DNA of 64,000 bases from Bryobacteraceae bacterium. Lineage in GTDB: Bacteria > Acidobacteriota > Terriglobia > Bryobacterales > Bryobacteraceae. The notes beneath the pieces are model-generated. The model was given only the letters and a program-made list of their open reading frames with translations, was not told the DNA's origin and made no database searches. A program made the translations under genes and the position numbers. This document shows positions 6,238-62,235 of this stretch, in pieces (within the stretch, counting starts at the first letter, position 1; each line of letters opens with the position of its first letter). Where the stretch lies: the NCBI GenBank assembly GCA_019752335.1, contig JAIEMJ010000026.1, forward strand, positions 1 to 64,000, in the 5' to 3' direction.

Positions 6238-6771
6238 CTACTTTACGGAGACTAAGCCCTTGAACTTCTCGTAGTACTGGTTCCCCACGATCTTCTTCGT
6301 CGAAAGATCTTCGACGCTCGCGATCGGGCGAGCCTTGATGATCTTGTCGGCGTTGGCCTCGCCGATACCGGGCAGGGCGATCAGTTCGGCGCGCGTGGCG
6401 GTGTTGAGGTTGACCTTAGCGCCGCCCATGGCCGGAGCCGCGGCGGCGGTCTTCTTCTTCGGTTCCACGGCCTCCACGGTCTTCTTGACGCCAGTCTTGG
6501 TGGCGTCGGCGGTCTTCTCGGCCACTTCCTTGGTGACTTTGGCGGTCTTCTTCACGCCGGTCTTGGTCGCGTCGACGGTGTCGGTCGCGACCGTCTCGGT
6601 CACCTTCGCTGTCTTCTTGGCCACCTTTTTGGTACCTTCGGCCGTGTCTTTGGCGACGGTTTCCGTCACTTTGGCCGTTTTCTTAGCCGTCTTCTCCACG
6701 GCCTCTTTTACCGCCTGCGGCGCGGCCGCCAGGCCAAAAGCAACTACGAGAGATAATCCGAGCTTCAACAT
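6238..6771 (-). CDS. Secreted lysine-rich repeat protein with ComEA-like helix-hairpin-helix domain
   Basis: A 177-residue protein starting at ATG 6771, with AAAGGA just upstream; a longer TTG start at 6786 is less likely. Residues 1-18 form a short signal peptide (MLKLGLSLVVAFGLAAAP). About 85 residues follow of repeated Lys/Thr/Val/Ala units (KKTAKVTETVAKDT, TKTGVKKT) with an 11-14-residue rhythm, resembling LEA-type or histone-H1-like amphipathic repeats. The C-terminal 60 residues are a helix-hairpin-helix DNA-binding domain of ComEA type (VNLNTATRAELIALPGIG, then ADKIIKARP). A role in binding DNA outside the inner membrane is inferred from the HhH domain; function is otherwise unknown. 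It converges on the flagellin gene with 2 bp between stops. Confidence 0.8.
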   Translation of the reverse strand: MLKLGLSLVVAFGLAAAPQAVKEAVEKTAKKTAKVTETVAKDTAEGTKKVAKKTAKVTETVATDTVDATKTGVKKTAKVTKEVAEKTADATKTGVKKTVEAVEPKKKTAAAAPAMGGAKVNLNTATRAELIALPGIGEANADKIIKARPIASVEDLSTKKIVGNQYYEKFKGLVSVK

Positions 6772-6790
6772 ATTTTTCCTTTTCAATAAC

Positions 6791-7588
6791 TTACTTAGAC
6801 CAGCGTGGTAAGTCCGAACCCGTATCGGGGGACGGAAACGTCTTCGACAGCAGGTCGTGCCAGGTCAGCCGCTCCTGGTCGAACCACGCCCAAAACAAAC
6901 CCAATCCTAGCGGCAGGGCACTGAAGGCCCCCCAGGCGACACGCATGAAGCGATCCTGCGTGGCCGGCTGGTCGCCGTCAAAGGTGACCAGGCGCAGGCC
7001 CGCCCAGCGCATTCCGGGAGAGTCAGTCCCCGCGAGGATAAACAAACTTCGATAGAACACGATCACGGCCAAGGCCAGCACGCCGTAGATCGTCCATCCC
7101 AAAAGCGTCCCGGGTACCGGGTCGGCGCCGAGATCACGCGTCATCAGCGCGTAGGCGATGGCCATCAAGCCGAAGGCGCCGAGCATCACCAGGGTATCGA
7201 AGAATCCGGCCATCATCCGAGCCGCCAGCGGCGCAACGGCGTGGTCGGTGTAGATGTCGGACTCCGGTGCGCGTTCGCGATCGCGGGCCTGCTGAAAACT
7301 GAGCGATCCCCAATCGCCCTCTCCCGGCAGACCTGTGGCTGGCCGGGTGGGGGCCAAGTCGACGATGGGGGCCATGCGCGCGGCGGCGCCTGAGCTTAAC
7401 GCGATGGTGGGCGGAGGCAGGGGGGCGGCTTCGACGGAAACGGGCGGGCGGTCCACTTCGTGGACGGTCGTAGCCCGGTAGGAGTCCGGCGCGGAGCGGG
7501 CGTTCGCCAAATGCAGCCGCCGCCCGCAGCGAAAGCAGCGATCATCTTCACGAGCGTTTGAGGTTCCGCAGAATCGGCAACTAATCAT
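6791..7588 (-). CDS. RDD-family membrane protein with N-terminal zinc ribbon
   Basis: A 265-residue protein. Residues 4-25 carry two CxxC pairs (CRFCG and CFRCG), a small zinc ribbon. A proline/alanine-rich linker follows, then an RDD domain from about residue 115 (LAARMMAGFFDTLVML) with membrane helices, including about 130-150 and 165-188. The RDD arginine lies in the first helix region, and the acidic signature is present as SPGMRWAGLRLV. RDD proteins are poorly understood; some are linked to ion exchange or transport. The stop lies 20 bp from the lysine-rich HhH gene, so the two may share a transcript. It is divergent from lptD. Confidence 0.85.
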   Translation of the reverse strand: MISCRFCGTSNAREDDRCFRCGRRLHLANARSAPDSYRATTVHEVDRPPVSVEAAPLPPPTIALSSGAAARMAPIVDLAPTRPATGLPGEGDWGSLSFQQARDRERAPESDIYTDHAVAPLAARMMAGFFDTLVMLGAFGLMAIAYALMTRDLGADPVPGTLLGWTIYGVLALAVIVFYRSLFILAGTDSPGMRWAGLRLVTFDGDQPATQDRFMRVAWGAFSALPLGLGLFWAWFDQERLTWHDLLSKTFPSPDTGSDLPRWSK

Positions 7589-57030: not shown

Positions 57031-58092
57031 GTGACCCAATCGAAGATGCTCGCCGAGATCCTCGAGCAACCGGACGCCCTCGCGCGTACCCTCAAGGCTC
57101 AGCTTCCCGCCGTCAAAAAGCTCCAACGCGCCGTCGCCGCCCGTCGGCCCTCCCTCATTGTGCTGGCCGCCCGCGGCACCTCGGATAACGCCGCGCAATT
57201 CGCGCGCTATCTGCTCGAAATTGAAACCGGAATTCCCGTCTCCCTCGCCGCTCCCTCGATCAACACGCTTTACGGCGCCCAGGTGAATCTGGCCAACGCC
57301 CTGGTGGTGGCCATCTCGCAGTCCGGCGAATCCACCGACACGAACTTCGTCCTCGAACGGGCTAAGGCCCAGGGCGCGATGACCGTCGGCATCACCAACG
57401 AGAGCGGCAGTACGCTCGCCAAGCTCGCTGACCATGTGCTGCTGGTGCGCGCTGGCAAGGAACGCTCCGTCGCCGCCACCAAGACCTACACGGGCCAACT
57501 GCTCTCCGTCTATCACCTCGCCTACGCCCTCGGCGCTCGCTTTACGCTGGAGCACCTGGAGCGCATCCCGGAGTTGGCCGCCGCCGCGCTCACCCTGGAG
57601 CCCGAGATTACCGCTCTCGCCGCGCGCTATCGCTTCATGAACCACGCCGTGGTCGTCGGCCGCGGACTCAACTACTCGAACGCCTTCGAACTTGCCCTCA
57701 AGCTGATGGAAACCTGCTACGTCGTCGCCGAGCGCTTCTCCTCGGCTGACCTCCTCCACGGCCCCATCGCCATGGTGGAAGCCGCTTTTCCTGTCTTCCT
57801 TTTCGCCCCGCCCGGACCCACCTGGCCCGGGCTCCAAACCATGCTCGAAAAGCTCGACACGCTTGCCGCCGATGTTCTCGTCATCACCGATCCGCGCAAC
57901 GCCGCCGCCCACAAAGTCCGGCGCCGTTTATCGATTCCCATCGCGCCCCCGGCCAGCAAGGGTTTCGATGATCTCTTCACGCCCATTCCCTACATCATTC
58001 CCGGCCAAATGCTGGCCGCGAAGTTAGCCGCCGAGAAGGGCCTCAATCCAGATGCCCCGCGAGCGTTAAGCAAGGTGACGCGGACGCTATAG
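57031..58092 (+). CDS. SIS-domain sugar isomerase, GlmS C-terminal-like
   Basis: A 353-residue protein with two SIS domains (about 35-165 and 200-340), lacking the N-terminal glutaminase domain of GlmS. Conserved blocks are LIVLAARGTSDNAAQFARYL, VVAISQSGESTDTNFVLERA, AGKERSVAATKTYTGQL, VVVGRGLNYSNAFELALKLM, and ERFSSADLLHGPIAMVE. The ending RALSKVTRTL corresponds to the GlmS tail LAKSVTVE. It may deaminate or isomerise glucosamine- or galactosamine-6-phosphate (AgaS/NagB-II type). GTG 57031 gives VTQSKMLAEILEQPDALART; ATG 57046 is an alternative. It is divergent from the AAA ATPase. Confidence 0.88.
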   Translation: MTQSKMLAEILEQPDALARTLKAQLPAVKKLQRAVAARRPSLIVLAARGTSDNAAQFARYLLEIETGIPVSLAAPSINTLYGAQVNLANALVVAISQSGESTDTNFVLERAKAQGAMTVGITNESGSTLAKLADHVLLVRAGKERSVAATKTYTGQLLSVYHLAYALGARFTLEHLERIPELAAAALTLEPEITALAARYRFMNHAVVVGRGLNYSNAFELALKLMETCYVVAERFSSADLLHGPIAMVEAAFPVFLFAPPGPTWPGLQTMLEKLDTLAADVLVITDPRNAAAHKVRRRLSIPIAPPASKGFDDLFTPIPYIIPGQMLAAKLAAEKGLNPDAPRALSKVTRTL

Positions 58093-58854
58093 CCGCTCGT
58101 GGCGCTGAATCCAGCGCAGGGCCCGGTTGAGTTCTTCGTACATATGGCCGCGATTCGGACCAAAGTCATGCTCGGCGTCTTCGAGCGTGCGTAAGTGGTG
58201 CGGCCGCCGGATGCTGGCCAGCATCCGCTTCGACACCGAGGCGGGCGTAAAGTGATCGCGGCCGGCCTGGATCACGGCCAGCGGCAACGGCGCGATCCGT
58301 GCCAGATAAGTCTCGGTGGCGAACTGGGGCCCGCCCGGCGCGCCGCGCCATAGCGCCGCCACGGAATCCTTCCAGCGCCAAGCGAGCACGCCCGTGTCCG
58401 GCAGCGCCAACAGCACCACGCCGGCGAACGCATGCCTCCCTTCGGGGCTCGCCCCGGCGACGGCCGACATCGCCGCGCCCTGGCTCCAGCCGGCCAGGAT
58501 CACGCGGCGGCCGGGTCCGCTGACGCAAGCGGCGCGGATGCTGGCGAAGTCGCCGCCGAGTTGCTCTTCGCGCAGTTGTCCGTCGCGCGCGGTGAAGGTG
58601 CTCAAGTAGCGCTTGGTGTCCCAGACGCAGACGTCGTAACCGGAGTCCGCCATGGCGCGGCTCATCTCCTTGGCCGCACCGCGATAGCCGCCGTCGCCCG
58701 GCAGAAATAGAATAGCCTCGGAGTGTTTCGGCGCCTTGGCCGCCAGAAACAGAACCTCCTGCCGCACGCCGCGCACCTCGACGTCGTTCCAACCCGGGCT
58801 GAGCGCCACCAGGGGCAGCGGCAACCACAGCCACAGTAGCCAACGCGTGGTCAT
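58087..58854 (-). CDS. VirJ/AcvB-type serine hydrolase, copy 2 (membrane-lipid cassette)
   Basis: A 255-residue alpha/beta-hydrolase of the VirJ/AcvB family, from ATG 58854. A signal peptide (WLLWLWLPLPLVALSPGW) precedes the N-terminal motif LFLPGDGGYRGAAKEMSRAM and WDTKRYLSTFTA. The nucleophile elbow is LAGWSQGAAMS; the acid and base are likely in IQAGRDHFTPAS and DAEHDFGPNRG. AcvB of Agrobacterium is a periplasmic lysyl-phosphatidylglycerol hydrolase. Here the gene overlaps the flippase-like gene by 4 bp, the last in a four-gene cassette with an MprF-type synthase. Removal of an aminoacyl head group is therefore the leading hypothesis. Confidence 0.87.
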   Translation of the reverse strand: MTTRWLLWLWLPLPLVALSPGWNDVEVRGVRQEVLFLAAKAPKHSEAILFLPGDGGYRGAAKEMSRAMADSGYDVCVWDTKRYLSTFTARDGQLREEQLGGDFASIRAACVSGPGRRVILAGWSQGAAMSAVAGASPEGRHAFAGVVLLALPDTGVLAWRWKDSVAALWRGAPGGPQFATETYLARIAPLPLAVIQAGRDHFTPASVSKRMLASIRRPHHLRTLEDAEHDFGPNRGHMYEELNRALRWIQRHERL

Positions 58855-59792
58855 TGCGTGCCTCGCAGTTCCGCCCAGTGCACGCCGCAGTTGGCGATCG
58901 CCACGTAGCCCAAGGCCCAGAGGGGCAGCGTCAGCACCAGAAATACTACCACCGAGAACGCCGCCGCCGCGCTCTTCTCCACGCCGAAGAGTTGCAAACC
59001 CAGCACAGTGAAGAACTGGAAGGAGCCCACGTTGGCCGGCGCGTTCGGCACCGCCGTCCCCAATTTCACGATCAGAAAGACGGCCGCGCCGGCCGCGAAC
59101 GACAGGCCTAACCCAGCCGACTCCATCACGAACCAGAACGCCCCCGCCTGCAACACCGACAGCCCCAACGAATACACCGCCGCCGCCGGCCAATGCCGGT
59201 TCAGCCCGATCTCGCCGATGCCGCCCAGCACCCGCCCTACCATTTGGCGGACCGCCGAATCCGGCTGCATCCGCCAAGCGGCCACCCAGCGCGGCGGACG
59301 CCACGCCAGGCCCACAAAGACCGCCACCAACAGCAGCATCAAGAGTCCGATCGCTTCTCCGGCCCAGGCCAGATTCGCCGGCAACGCCACAAAATGTACG
59401 AGCAACGCGCAGCCCACGCCCATCCACACGCCGTCCAACAGGCGGCCCACCGCCATCGACGGCAGTAACTCTGGAATCGCCGCGCCGCTCCACCGGCTGC
59501 CCAGGTACGCCCGCACCACTTCGCCCGCGCGCAGGGGCAGTATCTCGTTCGTAAATAGCCCGGCGTAGATCGCCTGCACGGCGCGCCACAACGGCAACGG
59601 CGCCACGGACCGCAACAGCAAGCTCCAACGTTGCCCTTCGCAGACATAGCTGAGGACGTCGCACAATACCGCCGGCACCAGCCACCACAATTGCATCTGG
59701 CCCACCTGCGCGCTGATCACCCGCCAATCGACGTCATGGAAGACCCACATCAGCGCGGCGACGGCCAGCGCGTAGCTAAAGAATCGCTTCAT
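58851..59792 (-). CDS. LPG_synthase_TM (UPF0104/AglD-like) membrane protein
   Basis: A 313-residue membrane protein with about seven to eight helices, equivalent to the flippase half of MprF. Family signatures are FTNEILPLRAGEVVRAYLGS and VKLGTAVPNAPANVGSFQFF. The N-terminus (MKRFFSYALAVAALMWVFHD) and the first loop YVCEGQRWSLLLR are also typical. It lies between two VirJ-type genes with 4-bp overlaps on both sides. In MprF this domain flips lysyl-PG to the outer leaflet; moving the lipid made by the cassette's synthase is the natural inference. Confidence 0.9.
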   Translation of the reverse strand: MKRFFSYALAVAALMWVFHDVDWRVISAQVGQMQLWWLVPAVLCDVLSYVCEGQRWSLLLRSVAPLPLWRAVQAIYAGLFTNEILPLRAGEVVRAYLGSRWSGAAIPELLPSMAVGRLLDGVWMGVGCALLVHFVALPANLAWAGEAIGLLMLLLVAVFVGLAWRPPRWVAAWRMQPDSAVRQMVGRVLGGIGEIGLNRHWPAAAVYSLGLSVLQAGAFWFVMESAGLGLSFAAGAAVFLIVKLGTAVPNAPANVGSFQFFTVLGLQLFGVEKSAAAAFSVVVFLVLTLPLWALGYVAIANCGVHWAELRGTQ

Positions 59793-60520
59793 GGCGCGCC
59801 TCCGGCCCAGTCGGTTTCGCGCGCCAGGATGCGCAGAAACTCCTCCTGATTGCCGCTGTAACGATGGTTGCGCGCCGTCACCGCGAAGAAGTGTTTGGGC
59901 TCACGCGCCCGCGCGAAGAGCGCCTTCGCCGCGGCCAACGGGACGTACTCATCCGCCGTCGACTGGATCATCACCAGCCGCGCGGGAGCGACGTGTTCCA
60001 TCCAAGGCGCCGTGGCAAACGTGGGCTCGTTCGGCTCGGCCTTGGTCAGGTAAGTGAGGTTGTCGGCGAAGCGCCAACCCCGCACCGCCGTTTCGGGCAA
60101 ACCCAACAGCACCACTCCGGCGGCCCGGCCCTTGGCGGCCGCGCCCAGCAGCGCCATCGCCGCGCCCTGGCTCCAGCCGATCAGCACCACCTTCGGCACG
60201 CCTACCTGCTGCGTCATCGCTTCCACATCGGCCTGCATCTGCTTCTCACTCAAAGGACCCTGGCTGGCGGTGAAGCCCGTCAGATATTGCTTCACGTCCC
60301 AGCCGTACACATCAAAGCCGTTCTTGCTCAAGGACCGCGCCATGTCGATGGCGAACCCCCGCCAGCCGCCGTCGCCCGGCAGAAACAGCACCGCGCCCTT
60401 CGCCGGGCCCGTCGCGCGGTAGAGCGTCACTTCCTGAGGCTGTCCGCGCAGGTGCCAAGCCAGGCTCTCCTCGCCCCACAGCGTGGCCGCCATCAGGCAC
60501 ACCATTCCCGCCCGAATCAT
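59789..60520 (-). CDS. VirJ/AcvB-type serine hydrolase, copy 1 (membrane-lipid cassette)
   Basis: A 243-residue paralogue of the protein at 58087-58854, from ATG 60520; this start overlaps the synthase stop (ATGA). A signal peptide (MIRAGMVCLMAATLWGEES) is followed by LFLPGDGGWRGFAIDMARSL, WDVKQYLTGFTA and the elbow LIGWSQGAAMALLG. Likely acid and base are in IQSTADEYVPLAAA and VTARNHRYSGN. The two copies differ markedly outside the motifs, so they may have different substrates, for example different aminoacyl lipids. Periplasmic location is predicted. Confidence 0.87.
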   Translation of the reverse strand: MIRAGMVCLMAATLWGEESLAWHLRGQPQEVTLYRATGPAKGAVLFLPGDGGWRGFAIDMARSLSKNGFDVYGWDVKQYLTGFTASQGPLSEKQMQADVEAMTQQVGVPKVVLIGWSQGAAMALLGAAAKGRAAGVVLLGLPETAVRGWRFADNLTYLTKAEPNEPTFATAPWMEHVAPARLVMIQSTADEYVPLAAAKALFARAREPKHFFAVTARNHRYSGNQEEFLRILARETDWAGGAP

Positions 60521-62235
60521 GCGTCCCCCTCGCCCTTCGGAAACTCCGACACTCGTCGCAACGCCAGCGGCAGTCGCGCCAGGTCCAGGCGCGATCCGTA
60601 GACGACGTACAGCGGTTCCCACGCGCTCGCGAACTTGGCCTTGTAGGCTCGCAGGCCAGAGAAGCTGAAGACTACGGTGAGATGTTGGAAGAAGGCATGC
60701 GCGGCGCGCTCCTCCAGGCTGGGCTCTTCGCCCGGCTGAAAGCCGCCCATGGGCGCCATGCCCAGATTGAAGCGCGTGTGGCCCCGCTCCTTCGCGTGGG
60801 CGAAGGCGCGCAGGAACAGGAAGTCCATCGTGCCGTTGGGGCTCTCCTCCTTACGCCGCATCAGATCCAGCGTCGCTTCGCCCGGCCGGTAGGAGGGAAT
60901 GAAGTTCAAGAAACCCAGCATCTCGCCCTCCTGGGTGTAAGCGCCCAACAAGCCCGTCGATTCGACGTAGCCTCGTTCGAACTGGCCCACGGTAAACTGA
61001 CGCTCCCGGCGGCCGGGCAGTTGCAACCACTCGCGCGACACGGCTTCGGCCGCATCCAGCACCTCGGCCGGCACTGGCGCGGGGTAGTAACGCGTCGCGA
61101 TCCCGGCGCGCTCGAACTGCTTCAGCGTCGCCCGGAAAGCCTTCGCGCGTTTGCCTTCCAGCGTAAACTCGTCCAAATTCACGATCGCCTCATCGCCCAG
61201 CTTGAAGTGCCGCATGCCGCAGGCCTCGTAGTGCCCCAGGCAACCCGGCGAGGCTTGATGAAACACCAGTCCCCAGTCGTTGCTTCGGCAATACTCGCGG
61301 AAAGCCGCGATCAGCGGCCGGATGTGGCCGGGCTCGCCCACCGGGTCGCCCAGCACCAGCGCCAGACCGGCTCCGACGCGGTACGCAAGAAACGCCTGCC
61401 GGTCGTCGCTAAAGAAGAAGCTCTTGTCCAGGCGGCATTTGAAATAGTCCTGCGCGGTGCGTCCATGCGCTTGCACAATCCGCGCGGCCAGTGCCGCCTT
61501 GCGTGGATGAATCCGGAAGTGGTGCAGCACGGGCCGGAAGCAATTCCAGGCGCCGTAAGCCAGGGTGGCGAAGGTAATCCCGTTCAACGACTCCAGGAAC
61601 CAACGCGCGTATTCCGTACGGGGCGTCAACCCAGTGCTGCCCATCAGCAGCAACGCGTCGAGCGTCTCGCGCAGTGCATCGCCCCATGCGAAGTCGACAC
61701 CGAACTCCCGCGGATCCAGCCACCAGAAGCCGGCGCTGCCGTAAACGAAGGCCAGCGCCACCACCGCGGCCAGGCGCCCCGTCGCTCCGCGCCAATGCCA
61801 CTCCCGGCTTTTTACCTGAAATTGGCCGCGCGTGATCCACAGTCCCGCCGCCAGTGCGCCGCTCAACGCCGCCTCCTCCCAGTCCATCCCTTTCGTGCAA
61901 TGCAGGACGGCCGCCAGCAGCGAAATGGCCAGGCCGAAGATCCAGGCGCGCCGTTTGCGCTCCAGCAGTTGCAAGCTTAAGAGCACCAGCGCAAAGCCCA
62001 GCAGGAGCACGCCGGATCGCGACGAGTCCAGAATTTCGAGGGGCAGCCACCGCCGTAGGGCTTCCACGCGTGCTGGATCACCCGCGCTCATCACGGAGTA
62101 GATGTTCAGCAGTCCACTGCCGCAGGTGAGCCCGGCTACCCACCATACGAGCGGGCGGCGCCAGTCCGTTTGGGCGGCCGCGGCTGGCTCCGGCCAACGC
62201 GGCAGTTCGTAGTTTCCCTCGCCGAGTTTGGCCAT
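60517..62235 (-). CDS. MprF-type aminoacyl-phosphatidylglycerol synthase (DUF2156) lacking the flippase half
   Basis: A 572-residue protein. The N-terminal 250 residues hold about six membrane helices (VWWVAGLTCGSGLLNIYSVM, SGVLLLGFALVLLSLQLLER, WIFGLAISLLAAVLHC, LAAVVALAFVYGSAGFWWL). The C-terminal DUF2156 aminoacyl-transferase domain (about 260-560) has FFSDDRQAFLAYRVGAGLAL, LGDPVGEP, GTMDFLFLRAFAHAKERGHT, and FSGLRAYKAKFASAWEPLYV. The usual N-terminal flippase domain is absent but encoded separately at 58851-59792. It uses aminoacyl-tRNA to modify phosphatidylglycerol in the family. It heads the operon synthase-hydrolase-flippase-hydrolase. Confidence 0.92.
   Translation of the reverse strand: MAKLGEGNYELPRWPEPAAAAQTDWRRPLVWWVAGLTCGSGLLNIYSVMSAGDPARVEALRRWLPLEILDSSRSGVLLLGFALVLLSLQLLERKRRAWIFGLAISLLAAVLHCTKGMDWEEAALSGALAAGLWITRGQFQVKSREWHWRGATGRLAAVVALAFVYGSAGFWWLDPREFGVDFAWGDALRETLDALLLMGSTGLTPRTEYARWFLESLNGITFATLAYGAWNCFRPVLHHFRIHPRKAALAARIVQAHGRTAQDYFKCRLDKSFFFSDDRQAFLAYRVGAGLALVLGDPVGEPGHIRPLIAAFREYCRSNDWGLVFHQASPGCLGHYEACGMRHFKLGDEAIVNLDEFTLEGKRAKAFRATLKQFERAGIATRYYPAPVPAEVLDAAEAVSREWLQLPGRRERQFTVGQFERGYVESTGLLGAYTQEGEMLGFLNFIPSYRPGEATLDLMRRKEESPNGTMDFLFLRAFAHAKERGHTRFNLGMAPMGGFQPGEEPSLEERAAHAFFQHLTVVFSFSGLRAYKAKFASAWEPLYVVYGSRLDLARLPLALRRVSEFPKGEGDA

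Follow-up and report, generated by a model that had tools for sequence, protein, structure and literature searches.

The 64,000-nucleotide window analysed here (positions 1 to 64,000 of the forward strand of contig JAIEMJ010000026.1, Bryobacteraceae bacterium, a soil acidobacterium, assembly GCA_019752335.1) contains a cassette of four genes in which the known MprF/AcvB membrane-charge system is rearranged and which, judged from the sequence, is probably a self-contained operon for aminoacyl-phospholipid turnover, i.e. for the synthesis, flipping and hydrolysis of aminoacyl-phosphatidylglycerol (aminoacyl-PG). The genes are arranged on the minus strand between positions 62235 and 58087 in the order SYN-HYD1-FLIP-HYD2. 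SYN (60517..62235, 572 amino acids) encodes a predicted aminoacyl-PG synthase consisting of MprF Subdomain 2 (transmembrane helices TM9-14) and a GNAT domain, without Subdomain 1. HYD1 (59789..60520, 243 amino acids) encodes a VirJ-family alpha/beta hydrolase, probably periplasmic, with residues Asp50, Ser117, Asp190 and His219, and FLIP (58851..59792, 313 amino acids) a stand-alone LPG_synthase_TM (UPF0104) membrane protein, presumed to be an aminoacyl-lipid flippase. HYD2 (58087..58854, 255 amino acids) encodes a second VirJ-family alpha/beta hydrolase with Asp54, Ser124, Asp200 and His229, in which a His follows the catalytic Asp. At all three junctions the genes overlap by 4 bp (ATGA), the ATG lying on the preceding stop codon, and the minus-strand frames and junctions thus bear out the initial annotation of four overlapping genes. 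The rest of the source genome contained no other VirJ gene, no other LPG_synthase_C gene and two further LPG_synthase_TM genes.

Conservation of the cassette

The distribution of the cassette was determined in 200 genomes of the window's order (Bryobacterales, judged from named relatives, which were mostly Bryobacterales genomes). SYN was found in 15 of them and a strong HYD1 in the same 15, with G465 adding a cut contig. HYD1 lay directly downstream of SYN in every case and FLIP was third in 14, indicating that the arrangement is not due to chance; the three genes of this core were not randomly scattered. HYD2 followed FLIP as the fourth gene in at least four of the 15 cassettes (G000, G338, G417 and G307), a minimum count, as some contigs end close to the cassette. 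Conservation of the order DUF2156-VirJ-UPF0104-VirJ, initially proposed as a check, could therefore be confirmed for the three-gene core SYN-HYD1-FLIP, while the full four-gene order was present only in this minority. The window's flanking genes did not travel with the cassette in relatives, which shows that the cassette is the unit. The operon core is real and conserved, and is carried by only some members of the group.

In Acidobacteriota at large, most strong LPG_synthase_C genes were located in fused frames of about 850-1160 amino acids. Shorter frames of 557-595 amino acids also occurred in G095, G162, G188 and G211. G095 showed the same SYN-HYD1-FLIP order as the window's core, and on the short contigs of G188 and G211 SYN adjoined FLIP with no hydrolase between them. 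An acidobacterial SYN-HYD1-FLIP cassette was also observed in a sequence titled Bordetella parapertussis (L113, CALQCC020000008.1), probably a mislabelled metagenome-assembled genome; this sequence and contig C8 of G187, a genome of the window's family, are both 136143 long. Likewise, a sequence titled Planctomycetia (L103, JAEUIF010000591.1) carried a cassette closely resembling the one in Bryobacter sp. (L106) and is probably misbinned.

Synthase without a flippase half

SYN matched LPG_synthase_C (Pfam PF09924) with an E-value of 6.5e-78. In a profile alignment, residues 30-562 covered the bifunctional MprF model from position 323 to 838, and the score of 418 bits was below the NCBIfam cut-off of 600 for bifunctional MprF. 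As the alignment starts at model position 323, SYN is an MprF without its first half, comprising the first eight membrane helices, in agreement with the initial description of an MprF-type synthase lacking the flippase half. SYN could be aligned to solved MprF chains from about residue 345 on, and to Rhizobium tropici MprF over a stretch beginning near residue 356 and ending at 842. Since Subdomain 1 of the latter protein spans residues 24-325 and Subdomain 2 residues 334-530, followed by the synthase (PMC8131360), SYN corresponds to Subdomain 2 plus the synthase. Compared with the bifunctional MprF of Staphylococcus aureus and R. tropici, SYN is cut at the same site as the engineered MprF(-8) and no Subdomain 1 is present in its chain. 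S. aureus MprF without the first eight helices still makes lysyl-PG (Lys-PG), but translocation and full resistance to peptides depend on the N-terminal part, which can be supplied as a protein of its own (PMC2774229). The window would be a natural counterpart of this engineered split. The actinobacterial LysX/AlaDAGS proteins are, like SYN, MprF-like synthases without the flippase half; LysX, however, charges diacylglycerol and is fused to a lysyl-tRNA synthetase.

The closest solved relatives of SYN were MprF and Lys-PG synthases rather than the alanyl-PG (Ala-PG) synthase. These structural relatives point weakly toward lysine, opposite to the pocket residues of the hydrolases described below, and no usable residue rule predicting the amino-acid specificity of SYN was found in the literature searched. 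A candidate for a second natural split MprF, in Bacteroidetes OLB10 (L166, 3197-5861), was rejected, as its frames of 329 and 551 amino acids read like one frameshifted MprF, probably resulting from an assembly frameshift.

Lineage and active site of the hydrolases

Both hydrolases scored above the gathering cut-off of 22 bits for VirJ (PF06057), HYD1 with 39.9 and HYD2 with 27.9 bits. The predicted structures were alpha/beta hydrolases with predicted local distance difference test (pLDDT) values of 92.6 for HYD1 and 92.2 for HYD2, and searches of solved folds with both models yielded alpha/beta hydrolases, including many esterase matches at similar Z. AcvB (9XHM), which may be absent from the fold library, was not among the matches listed. 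AcvB and VirJ cleave Lys-PG (PMC13197417, PMC13135905), and AcvB is composed of two alpha/beta-hydrolase domains, the N-domain being without hydrolase activity (PMC13197417). Comparison of hidden Markov models gave probabilities of 99.6% (HYD1) and 99.4% (HYD2) for a relationship to the AcvB C-domain, and of 99.2% for HYD1 to the N-domain. A tree was built from 118 domains; in it the N-domains and the C-domains of AcvB each formed a clade with 100/100 support and the acidobacterial hydrolases were found in neither. A smaller tree that included other Acidobacteriota agreed with this. HYD1 and HYD2 form a third lineage beside the two AcvB domain clades. An origin of the pair by separation of the AcvB N- and C-domains could be ruled out, neither of them falling inside either domain clade. 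The Ti-plasmid VirJ of Agrobacterium likewise belongs to this Pfam family and has a single hydrolase domain, but its homologue is the catalytic C-domain of AcvB (PMC13135905), outside whose clade HYD1 and HYD2 lie.

Active-site residues of 24 sequences (18 HYD1 and 6 HYD2) were mapped onto AcvB through alignments to 9XHM. The Asp of the GDGG motif (Asp271 in AcvB numbering), Ser336, His433 and the catalytic Asp were kept in all 24. Asp340 was absent from all of them, being replaced by Gly, Ala, Asn or Ser, and so was Asp370, at which site hydrophobic residues (Val, Ile, Phe or Ala) were found. AcvB requires both of these Asp residues for Lys-PG. The initial annotation had equated the hydrolases with AcvB, which holds for the catalytic Ser, Asp and His and the GDGG Asp, but not for Asp340 and Asp370 nor for the phylogenetic position. 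In AcvB, Asp271 and Asp340 are near the alpha-amino group of lysine and Asp370 is near its epsilon-amino group, while position 370 is Thr or Ser in homologues from Ala-PG producers (PMC13197417). The change at the Asp370 site is consistent with a shift from lysine to another amino acid in the cassette, with the alignment of this loop being uncertain, and the residue pattern suggests that the amino acid, possibly a neutral one, is recognised in a different way from lysine in AcvB. The N-termini of HYD1 and HYD2 were hydrophobic by eye; HYD1 is probably exported, and both enzymes probably strip the amino acid off the lipid.

Pairing and divergence of the two hydrolases

HYD1 and HYD2 are paralogues, as initially noted; they are catalytically intact by sequence and differ near the active site. 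The residue following the catalytic Asp was Glu, Asp or Gln in all 18 HYD1 and His or Arg in all six HYD2, amounting to a charge swap, and the positions directly before and after the catalytic His also differed between the two groups. Five HYD2 sequences formed a clade with 99/99 support, and the window's HYD2 (P0004), which fell near HYD1 sequences in the free tree, did not join this clade with support. A single HYD2 clade including P0004 was not rejected by the approximately unbiased test (p-AU 0.444), so that the fourth gene may have arisen once or twice.

The residue differences raise the hypothesis of two possible aminoacyl specificities. HYD1 and HYD2 might differ in substrate, either in the amino acid or in the use of PG versus diacylglycerol or cardiolipin, with SYN being promiscuous, and MprF homologues can make several aminoacyl lipids, including lysyl- and alanyl-diacylglycerol (Lys-DAG and Ala-DAG; PMC10580965). 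This explanation is nevertheless rather unlikely, as HYD2 was not detected in 11 of the 15 cassettes and pocket predictions from a single residue are weak. Alternatively, HYD2 could be a copy of HYD1 that is now redundant or decaying, or could serve as a regulatory partner resembling the AcvB N-domain, which shows no hydrolase activity (PMC13197417). The patchy occurrence of HYD2 and the recurrence of tandem VirJ-type domains in many lineages would be in agreement with this, but the Ser, Asp, His and GDGG Asp were kept in all six HYD2 sequences and the HYD2 model was as confident as that of HYD1, leaving redundancy or a regulatory role doubtful. A further explanation, modelled on the PesT/AlaDAGS pair of Corynebacterium, would make the hydrolases esterase or acyl-transfer partners of SYN, converting one aminoacyl lipid into another instead of only breaking down the product. 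AlaDAGS and LysX of C. pseudotuberculosis are MprF homologues charging diacylglycerol, and in C. glutamicum a strain lacking pesT-alaDAGS has been used, as these genes are linked to the synthesis of Ala-DAG and Ala-PG (PMC10580965). However, the VirJ/AcvB-family members characterised in PMC13197417 and PMC13135905 hydrolyse aminoacyl-PG, and an acyl-transfer role is very unlikely.

VirJ-type hydrolases were found beside MprF in most named relatives. Paired VirJ-type domains near MprF were present as tandem genes in L007-L009 and as HYDa and HYDb in L242-L244 and L110, indicating that two hydrolases are a recurring theme and not peculiar to the window. The contrast drawn initially with AcvB as a single hydrolase does not stand, since AcvB itself has two domains (PMC13197417) and VirJ-type pairs are common near MprF. 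The HYDa/HYDb pairs of Acidobacteriota (L110, L242-L244) resemble the window in having two hydrolases of the same third lineage near one MprF; they differ in that MprF is fused, and the Asp370 site is occupied by Glu in 9 of 9 HYDa encoded next to MprF-type synthases in other Acidobacteriota. In an alphaproteobacterial locus (L131, 5632-8899), MprF was followed by three VirJ-type hydrolase genes.

Lineage of FLIP

FLIP matched LPG_synthase_TM with an E-value of 5.9e-38 and 131.5 bits, against a Pfam gathering cut-off of 33.4. With a profile of the cassette FLIPs, a group of stand-alone UPF0104 proteins from the window's order scored about 210-360 bits, and no MprF N-half was matched; conversely, a profile of MprF N-halves matched none of the FLIPs. 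In the tree, 42 MprF N-halves were on one side of a branch with 100/99 support, and FLIP and the stand-alone UPF0104 proteins on the other. The flippase of R. tropici MprF has a Glu280/Arg304 gate and a YRXXY motif (PMC8131360). Neither the gate pair nor the motif was present in the aligned cassette FLIPs, which had Gln and Val (or another non-Arg residue) in the gate columns where most MprF N-halves had Glu and Tyr-Arg. Because of the profile scores, the tree and the absent gate, FLIP is placed within the Pfam LPG_synthase_TM family, yet outside the MprF flippase lineage. The profile scores and the tree rule out MprF fission as its origin, and it looks as if the MprF flippase had been replaced and not simply detached; the initial term 'split MprF', understood as a fission product, is thus not appropriate.

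That FLIP flips the product of SYN is suggested by their adjacency, FLIP being a flippase by family name only. FLIP might instead be a mere neighbour with an unrelated function, acting on another lipid or carrier, as its relatives occur in varied contexts elsewhere in the order, it is without the MprF gate residues, and no FLIP adjoins SYN-HYD1 in the L102/L104 clade, which indicates that FLIP is not strictly needed in the cassette. Yet FLIP was present in 14 of the 15 cassettes and adjoined SYN in two other loci with no hydrolase between, and the cassette FLIPs clustered together in the tree, apart from one stand-alone row, so that a role unrelated to the cassette is considered unlikely. At the place expected for FLIP, after HYD1, L104 has a gene for a 214-amino-acid membrane protein (6670-7314), a possible substitute. 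In G396 (L199, 5864-8795), a FLIP-like gene overlapped a 671-amino-acid frame resembling arginine decarboxylase, with no SYN or hydrolase present.

Proposed function of the cassette

In the proposed turnover operon, SYN would transfer the amino acid from aminoacyl-tRNA to PG in the inner leaflet. FLIP, in place of MprF Subdomain 1, would move the aminoacyl lipid to the outer leaflet, where exported HYD1 would cut the aminoacyl ester and restore PG. HYD2 would be an optional second hydrolase with an altered active-site rim, providing a second activity or a tuning step. With synthase and hydrolase on one transcript, supply and removal would be set together and the lipid level would stay within bounds. 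Loss of AcvB in Agrobacterium leads to build-up of Lys-PG and impaired growth at low pH (PMC13135905). The missing Asp340 and Asp370, the missing MprF gate and the L102/L104 clade weigh against such a turnover operon. Gene content, order and conservation support the initial view that aminoacyl-lipid synthesis, translocation and hydrolysis are encoded as one unit; this broad functional reading is likely right, whereas the evolutionary one is wrong. A more specific combination is improbable as a whole, namely that the flippase role was taken over by a stand-alone UPF0104 protein whose gate is unlike that of MprF, and that two different aminoacyl lipids of one promiscuous synthase are edited by two paralogous hydrolases of non-AcvB lineage.

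Among known systems, the LpiA-AcvB operon of Agrobacterium and Rhizobium (LpiA being an MprF-type synthase/flippase and AcvB a Lys-PG hydrolase) is similar in that the synthase adjoins a VirJ-family hydrolase with the Ser, His and GDGG Asp. In contrast, the window has separate synthase and flippase genes, with a candidate flippase of another lineage, and each of its hydrolases has a single domain, is encoded by a gene of its own, belongs to a third clade and is without Asp340 and Asp370. If the proposal is true, a flippase of non-MprF lineage in place of the lost half would make it testable what a flippase needs beyond the MprF gate residues, and the third hydrolase lineage would offer a handle on why VirJ-type domains often pair, the AcvB N-domain being without a known role. 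Soil harbours acidobacteria in abundance; the literature searched contained no account of aminoacylated lipids for this acidobacterial lineage, nor anything useful on the lipids of Bryobacter.

Neighbouring genes

A gene for a SIS-domain (GlmS-like) protein is located on the plus strand at 57031-58092, convergent with HYD2 and sharing its final 6 bp with it. The first gene upstream of SYN is divergent. Neither of these neighbours belongs to the cassette.

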